DNA of 64,000 bases from Bacillota bacterium (lineage in GTDB: Bacteria > Bacillota > UBA994): the NCBI GenBank assembly GCA_009773495.1, contig WSXW01000001.1:1-64000 (forward strand), given 5' to 3'. This document shows, piece by piece, positions 57,835-60,360 of the stretch (positions are counted from its first letter, which is position 1; every line of letters begins with the position of its first letter). The position numbers and the translations under genes were made by a program. The notes below the pieces were generated by a model, which saw nothing but the letters and a program-made list of their open reading frames with translations, searched no databases and was not told the DNA's origin.

Positions 57835-58620
57835 TCAATTGACGTACAAAAGTTCAATAGTAGCCAGCATCCTGCCCGCCTTGCCCACCTGCCGTCGGTG
57901 AGAATAGTACTCGCAACCACATATACTACACCCACCAACACGCTCGATACTAGTTGGCTTAACCCCTAACCTAGTTAAACGTAACGTATTGTAGATACGC
58001 AAATCGACCATAAACTTCCCTGAGGCAGCCTCATACCTGTAATCGCGCTCCAAGCCATCATCTAGCGCCTTAACTACCTTCTCGTCTACCTCATAACAGC
58101 ATCCCGAAGCAGATGGCCCCATAGCTACTAACACTTCGGGCGCTTGAGAATCCCACATCTCAGACATGCCTCGTAGGGCATTGTCCACAATTCCTGCCGC
58201 AGAACCAAGCCATCCTGCATGGCAGGCAGCTGCAACATGATGCTTGGGATCATAGAACAAGATAGCTACGCAGTCAGCAGTAAATATGTTTAGTGACAAT
58301 TCGGGCACTGCGGTAATCAGGCCATCACAATTAGGAATACCGCTTTCAAAAGATGCCATCCCACTTCCACCCTGTAAGTTGGTTACACCAATAACCCTAT
58401 TGCCATGAACTTGTTGACAGAATACCCCCGCGGTAGGATCGCTTCCTAGTCTCGCAAAATATTCATAGCGATTAAGTGAGACACGCTGAGGAATGTCACC
58501 GCAAGAATAAGATAAGTTTAGCCCCTTTAGGTCGCCCTGGCTCACACCTCCTTCCCGAGTTGAAAAACCGTGTCTAAGAGGAAAGCCAGAGAACAGTTGG
58601 GCTTTCAGGATTGTCGGCAT
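57835..58620 (-). CDS. pgeF: Purine nucleoside phosphorylase / laccase-domain protein
   Basis: 261 residues of the PgeF/YfiH/YlmD family, whose members act on purine nucleosides and remove misincorporated amino acids from peptidoglycan precursors. Metal-binding residues: FCQQVHGNRV, FTADCVAILFYDP, AACHAGWLGSAAG and YYSHRR. It overlaps the NrdD-like gene by 47 bp, yet ATG 58620 has GAGGAG upstream at an acceptable distance. Confidence 0.95.
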   Translation of the reverse strand: MPTILKAQLFSGFPLRHGFSTREGGVSQGDLKGLNLSYSCGDIPQRVSLNRYEYFARLGSDPTAGVFCQQVHGNRVIGVTNLQGGSGMASFESGIPNCDGLITAVPELSLNIFTADCVAILFYDPKHHVAAACHAGWLGSAAGIVDNALRGMSEMWDSQAPEVLVAMGPSASGCCYEVDEKVVKALDDGLERDYRYEAASGKFMVDLRIYNTLRLTRLGVKPTSIERVGGCSICGCEYYSHRRQVGKAGRMLATIELLYVN

Positions 58621-59902
58621 TACGCATACACTCCTCTAATCGTGATCCATTGTAAATTACTGTACGACGCGACTCCGTGCCACAAGCGGGACATGGACCT
58701 GAGGCAGCTACAGGTAACGCGCACGCGGCACACCGTGTATCGTCTACGCTAAAACGCAGGAATGATACGCCAACTTGCTGTGCCTCTGCCAGTTGATGAT
58801 ACAACTCTTCCTTACTACGATGGGTTCCAGCCTTGGCCAGATAACAATGTCCGCCCGGAAGCATATGCTGCAAACTCGCAGCCAGCACAGGAGACATCAA
58901 GCCAGAGGCTGGACCTGGTGTTGAGTACGTAAATCGTACATCGTCTGCCGTTGCTGATAGTAAGAAGTTGCGGCCATACTCCTCACGTAGACGTAACACC
59001 CTTTTAGAAACCAGTGCCAAACAGTCGAAAACACTACTATTAGAAGACAGGCCTACCAAATTTATAATTAGGGGAAGGGTACGTTGTAAAGACTCAGACT
59101 GCACCACTTCGAGGCGATGTGCCAGTAATCGTGCCGCCACACCCAACGCCTGTAGCAAGCTATCTTCACCATAGGACTCTAAGAGTGGAACGTTAAGCGA
59201 AACCCGGCCTGGTACTACTTGGCCCCGGCAGCCAAGATATAAATCACCATGCTGAGGCTCGACGCGCAAGCCATGGGAGTTATAGGTAACAAGATTCATC
59301 CACTGGCTGTTTAATGCGGAGTCCATTAGACTAAAGGCTATGCCTTTGCGGTCTCTCGCCAAATCCAGTGCAAGCATCAGGAGGTCATAATTTGTATCCG
59401 ACGGTGCAAAACTCGTTCCTTTTCGAACTCTAAAGACCACCTGAGGTTCAAGGTACGTGTGTCCAGAAGCCAAGATATTGAGAACTATGCGTGTCAAGCG
59501 TCGCCCTGCTTCTGTTGTATCGTCTCCTAGATTTACTGTAACCTCGTGGCGTGGTGTTTGACAAAATAACTCAAAGAGCCGACTAAGTATACGCGCTGAC
59601 TTGTCCTCATGTGGCCAAAACCGCGAAATCAAGAAGCCAAGATCGGTGTCGAAGTGGGGTAGACATAATGCCGCGGAGCGAAACGAATCCCGCTTGATAT
59701 CATGTGCTAGGCTAAGCATTAATTCTGCCCCATCTTGACACCCTACGTCTCGGTAATCCGGTAATGCAAGATCGGGACCGAAGTAGTGCTCTAGCGAATG
59801 AACAAAGACCCCACCTTGCTTCATCGCCTCGCGGCCTTCAGAGGGCACAATTTCTTCTAGGACCTTTTGTCTCAAGTAGTTGCATGACCACAGCCGAGCC
59901 AC
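58574..59902 (-). CDS. NrdD-like protein lacking the glycyl-radical glycine
   Basis: 442 residues resembling the catalytic core of anaerobic ribonucleotide reductase. The barrel segment EPQVVFRVRKG (152-162) plus SDTNYDLLMLAL matches NrdD's PxxVFKxxKG...GDPNYDLF. The thiyl-radical Cys region appears as YLGCRGQV (Cys225). The C-terminal zinc ribbon is kept (CAAC 391-394, CPAC 404-407). In NrdD this is followed by RRVCGYLGS with the radical Gly; here the aligned stretch is RRTVIYNGS, so Gly is replaced by Ile416. The protein lacks an ATP-cone and is shorter than typical NrdD (about 600-700). GTG 59902 starts in the nrdR stop. A structural or regulatory role is inferred. Confidence 0.72.
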   Translation of the reverse strand: MARLWSCNYLRQKVLEEIVPSEGREAMKQGGVFVHSLEHYFGPDLALPDYRDVGCQDGAELMLSLAHDIKRDSFRSAALCLPHFDTDLGFLISRFWPHEDKSARILSRLFELFCQTPRHEVTVNLGDDTTEAGRRLTRIVLNILASGHTYLEPQVVFRVRKGTSFAPSDTNYDLLMLALDLARDRKGIAFSLMDSALNSQWMNLVTYNSHGLRVEPQHGDLYLGCRGQVVPGRVSLNVPLLESYGEDSLLQALGVAARLLAHRLEVVQSESLQRTLPLIINLVGLSSNSSVFDCLALVSKRVLRLREEYGRNFLLSATADDVRFTYSTPGPASGLMSPVLAASLQHMLPGGHCYLAKAGTHRSKEELYHQLAEAQQVGVSFLRFSVDDTRCAACALPVAASGPCPACGTESRRTVIYNGSRLEECMRNADNPESPTVLWLSS

Positions 59903-60360
59903 TACTCTCGAACCCTTAGCAGCTTCTCTAACTCACCTAGAAAATTGTGAATATCGGTGAACTGTCGATAGACCGAGGCAAAGCGCACATACGCCACTTC
60001 GTCGATGTGCTGCAATCGGTCCATTACTAGCTCGCCTATGCGATGCGAGGGAACCTCATTAAAACCCTCATGCTGTAGCTTATTCTCAATCTCAATCACA
60101 GCGTCTTCCAACACCACCAAAGGTACAGGTCGTTTTTCACAGGCCCGGAGTAGCCCGGCCAGAATTTTGCTGCGGCTAAACATTTCGCGCTTGCCATCTT
60201 TCTTAATAACCACAAGCGGTTGTTCTTCTGGTCTTTCGTAGGTAGTAAATCTCCGCATGCAATTTGGACACTCCCTGCGCCTGCGGATGGCCGCTTCCTC
60301 ATCGGTTGGCCTACTATCAATCACCCTGCTATCTAATTGACTACAATATGGACATCTCAC
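59902..60360 (-). CDS. nrdR: Transcriptional repressor NrdR
   Basis: A 152-residue repressor of ribonucleotide reductase genes. The N-terminal zinc ribbon (CPYCSQLDSRVIDSR ... CPNCMRRF) binds NrdR boxes, and the ATP-cone (about 49-139) senses dATP/ATP. The start is GTG 60360 behind GGGGTGG. It overlaps the NrdD-like gene by one base, so the two are co-expressed. No NrdR-box pair was found immediately upstream by eye. Confidence 0.97.
   Translation of the reverse strand: MRCPYCSQLDSRVIDSRPTDEEAAIRRRRECPNCMRRFTTYERPEEQPLVVIKKDGKREMFSRSKILAGLLRACEKRPVPLVVLEDAVIEIENKLQHEGFNEVPSHRIGELVMDRLQHIDEVAYVRFASVYRQFTDIHNFLGELEKLLRVRE

Follow-up and report, generated by a model that had tools for sequence, protein, structure and literature searches.

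The window analysed here is a stretch of 64,000 nucleotides (nt) from a Bacillota bacterium of the lineage UBA994 (GenBank assembly GCA_009773495.1, contig WSXW01000001.1, positions 1 to 64,000 of the forward strand). On its minus strand, immediately behind nrdR, lies a gene for a protein of 442 amino acids (aa) that derives from NrdD, the class III ribonucleotide reductase (RNR). The supply of DNA precursors is under the control of ribonucleotide reductase, and an ATP-cone serves as nucleotide sensor in NrdD as well as in the repressor NrdR. On balance, we somewhat favour the view that the protein is a retired NrdD, kept in a non-catalytic and probably regulatory capacity; its place in the genome, its lost residues and the selection on its relatives point this way. 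The features of the locus are the following:

58574..59902, minus strand: gene of the putatively non-catalytic NrdD-derived protein, 442 aa, GTG start (list of open reading frames, ORFs, with profile and alignment evidence)
59902..60360, minus strand: nrdR (TIGR00244, 202.3 bits, cut-off 124.65; Pfam ATP-cone and Zn_ribbon_NrdR)
59183..59542, minus strand: residues 121–240, NrdD-like barrel stretch, matching true NrdDs at no more than 42% identity
59225..59290, minus strand: residues 205–226, equivalent of the finger loop (alignments)
59273–59275, minus strand: His210, in the column of the thiyl Cys, followed by Gly211 (alignments)
59228–59230, minus strand: Cys225, not homologous to the thiyl Cys (alignments)
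58682..58732, minus strand: zinc-ribbon Cys391, Cys394, Cys404 and Cys407, the same four in all six aligned proteins of families f1 and f2 (see below)
58643..58648, minus strand: Gly419-Ser420, with the radical Gly expected at Ser420 (register counted from MGCR-type NrdDs)
58655–58657, minus strand: Ile416
57835..58620, minus strand: pgeF, the next gene after the 442-aa gene (TIGR00726, 158.3 bits)

The original prediction, made from the letters of the window alone, had named the upstream gene nrdR and placed the start of the 442-aa ORF in its stop codon. Both statements hold, the first by the TIGR00244 score and the second because the first base of the GTG is the last base of that stop codon (a 1-nt overlap). 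The NrdD-like character of the protein was likewise confirmed: it scored 35.4 bits against the Pfam NRDD model PF13597 (gathering cut-off 26.2), and a profile of the window's family matched a profile of 33 true NrdDs with 99.7% probability (hhalign). In the genome-wide search the PF13597 score was only 18.2 bits, below the cut-off, as was that of one orthologue (G001, 23.5 bits), and the whole-protein NrdD model TIGR02487 failed, at 35.6 bits far under its cut-off of 326.35. The scans also agreed with the prediction that a CAAC/CPAC zinc ribbon (CxxC...CxxC) is present and that the ATP-cone is absent, none being found in the protein by Pfam. The predicted structure, made from two input sequences, was too poor to be used (mean pLDDT 41.4, pTM 0.33), and a contig scan with the single 442-aa protein as query returned no relatives.

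Relatives were identified in the sampled genomes of the phylum, to which the family searches were confined. In the taxonomic family of the window (f1), orthologues with 39–42% identity stand directly behind nrdR in two other genomes (G001 and G002), and because of this the 442-aa gene is taken to be more than a chance ORF. A third genome (G003) has the C-terminal fragment of a homologue at a contig edge, and the translation of the G002 copy is identical to one in Peptococcaceae bacterium CROMO_A_245 (L033). In the sister family f2, three genomes (G025, G070 and G354) encode homologues of 602–610 aa in the same place, with an N-terminal ATP-cone scoring 81.5–82.6 bits (cut-off 25.8); in a fourth (G311) the homologue is broken by a run of N. 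Nucleotides are shared between nrdR and the homologue, four in each case, in all six f1 and f2 relatives read (G001, G002, G025, G070, G354 and G311). The profile of the three f2 proteins aligned with the 33 true NrdDs over 589 columns (E 1.2e-85, hhalign), and the f1 form looks like a shortened descendant, without the cone and with parts of the barrel gone. When 398 genomes of the phylum were searched by profile, only seven members scored strongly, all from the class of the window; below them came a steady run of matches that were mostly true NrdDs.

In another class, two genomes of the family f55 (G064 and G260) have NrdD-like genes without the canonical motifs in the same neighbourhood. With an eight-sequence profile, full-length homologues were detected in 19 of the 23 genomes of f55. 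Two more (G448 and G449) have pieces, G451 has a C-terminal fragment of uncertain type, and no homologue was detected in G441, whose sole match lies in a 1059-aa frame and was taken as a true NrdD. The f55 proteins are 612–641 aa long, keep the ATP-cone (Pfam detected it in G064 and G260, and the KRDG motif is present in 19/19) and end before the radical site, with no CxxC in the last 120 residues of any of the 19. A true-type NrdD is also encoded elsewhere in G064 (as two matches within a 1122-aa frame) and G260, and many other f55 genomes have a further match over the first 160–260 profile positions. NrdDs in frames of about 1120–1250 aa whose match to the profile is divided into two parts some way from each other, a pattern expected of inteins, were also seen in genomes of the families f13, f69 and f125 (for example, G136:C77, G213:C108 and G466:C59; also G064:C110). 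Matches to NRDD of about 500 aa near the true nrdD of relatives were considered as family members and rejected: that of G001 is a YjjI family glycine radical enzyme by NCBIfam, and the others were set aside by eye (G005) or by their similar length and score (G002 and G003). The YjjI-type genes lie about 10 kb from the true nrdD (L085:274-2490 in G001; L087:10587-12819 in G005, by eye), adjoined in both genomes by a radical-SAM ORF that resembles, by eye, their activase.

Two catalytic positions had been read differently before, with a GCR motif at Cys225 taken as the thiyl site and Ile416 as the replacement of the radical Gly; neither assignment stood. When the cone-bearing relatives were used as a bridge, the YMGCRTRV of true NrdDs aligned with TYNSHGLRV, which puts His210 of the window protein in the thiyl column, occupied by Gln and Tyr in its two full-length orthologues. 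Cys225 falls opposite the (S)AGRGN stretch of true NrdDs and is Thr in both orthologues, and was therefore rejected as the thiyl Cys. One hhalign run speaks against this: with the 33 MGCR-type NrdDs it set Cys225 opposite the MGCR Cys, although it needed two gaps, each some 15 residues long, to do so; the run with 42 true NrdDs did not make this pairing. MGCR-type NrdDs have the radical Gly 13 residues past the last zinc Cys, a register that corresponds to Ser420 here, with Gly419 one residue off; Ile416, at +9, was discarded on this ground. At the position of Ser420, G002 has Val and G001 has Gly, with which its protein ends. This register rests on counting and on the hhalign alignment of f1 with f2, and one MAFFT alignment has a gap there.

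The losses are shared by the whole protein family. No thiyl Cys was found in the alignments in any of the 26 readable members vs 27 of 27 true NrdDs; the column holds His, Gln or Tyr in f1, Ser in 4/4 of f2, and Asn in 13 of the 19 f55 proteins (Ser, Gly, Asp or Thr in the others), and the Arg that follows the Cys has become Gly in all 26. Other functional sites, whose roles are described in PMC11226230, have gone as well. None of the 25 members compared has the Asp of HxHD or the reductive Cys, and none of the 22 with the region of the NxN flap has that flap (the region is absent in f1). The Glu of the specificity site, placed on the alignment by motif, remains in one of 25, and the loop-2 Arg is missing in 21/21 members with a residue at that column; in the same alignment, 10/10 true NrdDs have each of these five. 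As for the radical Gly, f1 has Ser, Val or Gly, and in f55 the domain is absent. These counts come from alignments in which f1 is weak near the N terminus and after the zinc ribbon, so that single f1 columns there are less sure; G311 was read as two pieces around its run of N, in one alignment only, and the partial f55 members (G448, G449 and G451) were excluded. Most f55 finger loops (L142-L160) have a Cys (CYF...) three positions ahead of the column that has lost the thiyl Cys, at a site that is Ser or Ala in true NrdDs.

The place behind nrdR has a history of its own. Among the matches listed, NrdD lies directly downstream of NrdR on the same strand in 53 of the 56 genomes compared, and in the other three the two are on different contigs. 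For this comparison, 57 NrdR rows were picked by eye from genomes also present in the NrdD list, which admitted matches to the family profile at E ≤ 1e-20, and 56 were matched. Eight true-NrdD loci were fetched, seven of them with nrdR; in these, nrdG follows nrdD directly in six and after one intervening gene in L136, and pgeF comes next in four (L131, L133, L134 and L135), so that nrdG stands between nrdD and pgeF in true slots. A scripted search for NrdG-like motifs detected such an ORF in seven of the eight true loci (the pattern passed over that of L134, which was recognised by eye) but in none of the 27 loci (25 genomes) of the family without the thiyl Cys, nor in the window. The one slot nrdG that was scanned scored 117 bits to TIGR02491, just below the cut-off of 126.1. 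Judged by gene order, the window gene occupies what was ancestrally the slot of nrdD, and nrdG is no longer there. Since that slot held a true nrdD in 53/56 genomes, the coupling to nrdR is explicable by ancestry; in view of this gene order in the relatives, adjacency was no longer counted as a sign that the two genes work together.

The genome has other means to reduce ribonucleotides. The complete nrdD and nrdG that the prediction had advised looking for are on another contig: a NrdD of 706 aa with an ATP-cone (TIGR02487, 558.7 bits, cut-off 326.35) and, beside it, an NrdG2-type activase (193.6 bits, cut-off 131.15). By its MCCR...RVVGF motifs, an assignment that leans on its relatives, this NrdD belongs to a branch different from the slot type (MGCR...RITGY). 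The domain PF02867 of the other RNR large subunits was found in 23 of the 26 genomes searched, including that of the window, where the large subunit lies in a 1029-aa open frame (G000:C1:83917-85662); NrdD is therefore not its sole reductase.

With regard to the neighbours, the minus strand of the window carries a sigE-like gene (by eye), sigG (NCBIfam), a spoIIR-like ORF (by eye), ylmC/ymxH, nrdR, the 442-aa gene, pgeF, a HlyD-type gene and yggS. The ORF after yggS resembles sepF by eye and matched no NCBIfam model. Counted from its first annotated ATG, pgeF overlaps the 3′ end of the 442-aa gene by 47 nt (58574–58620), and its true start may lie further downstream. In genus g3 of the window's own family (L089, L090 and L091), where the NrdD remnant is missing, pgeF is absent from this place too, and nrdR is followed directly by the HlyD-type gene.

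Selection was examined where sequences allowed. In six f55 pairs dN/dS was 0.085–0.117, and five of them gave a lower value for the cone than for the remainder of the protein; in six f1/f2 pairs pN was 0.22–0.44 vs a pS of 0.77–0.84, synonymous sites being saturated, so that selection on the branch of the window, gauged through the f1 pairs, is read coarsely. The frames are open in the three full-length f1 members, in three of the four f2 members (the fourth being cut by the run of N) and in 19 f55 members. In both f55 and f2 no region is better kept than the ATP-cone, at a mean pairwise identity of 0.79 in f55 and 0.89 in f2 (0.66 among nine true NrdDs), while identity over residues 231–345 is only 0.43 (f55) and 0.47 (f2) vs 0.69 in true NrdDs. 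Between the window protein and its two orthologues, the most similar stretch is residues 376–416, with the zinc ribbon (0.63 and 0.59); the others are at 0.28–0.50 and the tail lower. Between G001 and G002 this stretch, at 0.63, is second to residues 121–193, at 0.66.

A tree of 40 proteins joined f1, f2 and f55 against the true NrdDs with a support of 93/85 (not starred), and forcing f55 together with the true NrdDs of its own class was rejected by the approximately unbiased (AU) test (p 0.032, one of three run, uncorrected); the AU tests did not tell apart the possible relations among the three. A single origin is likely from these data, supported by the Arg-to-Gly change common to all, although long branches and convergence after the loss of catalysis could give the same picture.

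Taken together, family-wide losses and a complete NrdD with activase elsewhere support the catalytically dead, repurposed homologue that had been suggested. The following course of events would account for them. From an ancestral nrdR-nrdD-nrdG cluster, whose true nrdD would be the forebear of the window gene, the copy behind nrdR would have lost its activase gene while another NrdD and activase supplied deoxyribonucleotides (dNTPs); the thiyl Cys, the reductive Cys, the triphosphate-binding Asp, the substrate flap and the specificity-site residues would have gone too. The job retained would be regulatory, by binding instead of chemistry. In the cone-bearing lineages the protein may read ATP/dATP and act through mixed oligomers with the NrdD of the cell, or with NrdR where present. 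In one class III RNR the cones have been described as forming dimers and moving with dATP (PMC12662201), and the NrdR tetramer consists of cone pairs and zinc-ribbon pairs (PMC12176259); because cones pair in both, a dead cone-bearing NrdD could pair with either. The cone-less lineage of the window would act through its barrel piece and zinc ribbon, for example, by binding NrdD, the activase or NrdR. The activase is one candidate since the zinc domain of NrdD has been conjectured to meet it (PMC4493059). Nucleotide sensing is thus plausible for the family and less so for the window member, as two other lineages have the cone and this one has none. As a complete proposal, a pseudo-ribonucleotide-reductase family with the cone as best-kept part, setting dNTP synthesis through mixed oligomers with a working NrdD (or NrdR), and through the zinc ribbon in the lineage of the window, is offered tentatively, as possible rather than probable.

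Several observations weigh against this reading. In genus g3 of the window's own family (G004–G007), the f1 profile gave no match; a HlyD-type gene directly follows nrdR in G005, G006 and G007, and in G004, where nrdR is split over two contig ends, it follows the 3′ piece. The member in the window is cone-less and fast-evolving, as its identity to the orthologues indicates. f55 lacks the zinc ribbon and f1 the cone, and with only the barrel remnant common to f1, f2 and f55 one shared mechanism is less certain. At the radical site, f2 keeps Gly-Tyr in 3/3 (Gly-His in G311). Moreover, the loss of the thiyl Cys is alone no proof of inactivity, because the NrdD of Thermotoga maritima, with Ile at the loop tip and without a pre-positioned Cys, has been reported active (PMC4493059).

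The best surviving alternative, which we nevertheless regard as rather unlikely, is a dedicated partner of NrdR, a co-repressor or co-sensor that binds NrdR and tunes the repression of the true nrdD. The gene overlaps nrdR in the window as in its six relatives, and NrdR, which works via cone pairs, was found in seven of the 23 f55 draft genomes (six above the cut-off), each time directly upstream of the homologue. In addition, two NrdR-box-like sites 31–32 bp apart precede the true nrdD in 9/9 genomes of the window's class tested, including its own (pair p ≤ 0.003 by shuffles, which preserve base pairs only in blocks of two), and by these sites the window genome probably has a working NrdR-nrdD circuit; the consensus and spacing scored are those we take to be typical of the NrdR box. 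On the other hand, NrdR was not found in 16 of the 23 f55 genomes (six of the 11 better ones), which, at a completeness of 62–97% among the genomes without a match, can be an assembly gap. The full-length homologue persists there in 19/23, and in two pairs under selection (G456–G460 and G443–G444) NrdR was found in neither genome; this persistence, mostly without a detected nrdR, weakens an obligate co-repressor role. No box pair was significant in any of the 16 f55 nrdD promoters scored, five of them with nrdR, out of 18 (L180-L197; G449 was too short and G450 had no recognised start, while for G457 and G459, which showed no start codon, a motif served to place the start). Upstream of nrdR or the slot, 17 tests gave a pair p of 0.01 in G001, 0.07 in the window and above 0.1 in the others. 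The protein family thus does not seem to depend on the NrdR-nrdD circuit, its neighbourhood is inherited from a true nrdD, and the window protein lacks the cone.

More doubtful still is an enzyme repurposed for other chemistry, perhaps a radical enzyme of the non-glycyl kind that carries its radical on Ser420. Radical enzymes with Ala, Ser or Thr do exist in the glycyl-radical superfamily (PMC11528403), and the Ser420 register, the Gly-Tyr of f2 and the T. maritima enzyme would suit it. However, the non-glycyl enzymes are described as keeping the catalytic Cys, near an activase (PMC11528403), while here the Cys is lost in 26/26 and no NrdG-like ORF is nearby; the radical position varies among Ser, Val and Gly within f1 and is missing in f55, and HxHD and NxN are gone. 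Least credible is a decaying gene, carried along by its overlap with nrdR and its position before pgeF, a possibility raised in the original prediction: fast evolution, the lost cone and shortened barrel of f1, and the absence from g3 would fit, but the frames are open, the four zinc Cys are retained in six aligned f1/f2 proteins, and purifying selection acts on the residues (dN/dS about 0.1 in f55, pN well under pS in f1/f2).

The preferred reading, a retired NrdD kept without catalysis, can be set beside known systems. With class III NrdD of the ATP-cone (MGCR) type the family shares descent, the barrel stretch, the zinc ribbon (f1 and f2), the cone (f2 and f55) and the place behind nrdR; unlike it, the family has no thiyl Cys, reductive Cys, HxHD Asp, NxN flap, specificity-site residues or adjoining nrdG, and its glycyl-radical domain is missing in f55 and altered in f1. 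The aminoacyl radical enzymes (PMC11528403) resemble the window protein in the non-Gly residue, here Ser420, and differ from the family by their catalytic Cys and nearby activase. UL45 and M45 of cytomegaloviruses, inactive homologues of the class I RNR large subunit (PMC5469499), are a precedent for an RNR subunit kept without catalysis, although they are viral and act on host signalling, whereas the present family is bacterial, class III and in the nrdR-nrdD slot. The adjacent gene encodes NrdR, which represses RNR genes and has its ATP-cone in common with f2 and f55; f1 and f2 also have a zinc ribbon, not necessarily homologous to that of NrdR, and no DNA-binding domain of the NrdR type was found in scans of the window, f2 and f55 members. 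In the open-access literature searched (PubMed Central, outside which most subscription papers lie), no description of such a family and no earlier report of a conserved bacterial dead NrdD in the nrdR-nrdD slot were found; pseudoenzymes and inactive RNR homologues are already known.

For annotation, the family is a warning, as several of its genes pass the Pfam NRDD cut-off and could be counted as reductases. A conserved dead NrdD whose cone is better kept than in true NrdDs would be a natural split of sensing from catalysis, and would make the action of cones between different proteins testable. If the proposal is true, a retired enzyme would have turned into an allosteric subunit of its successor.

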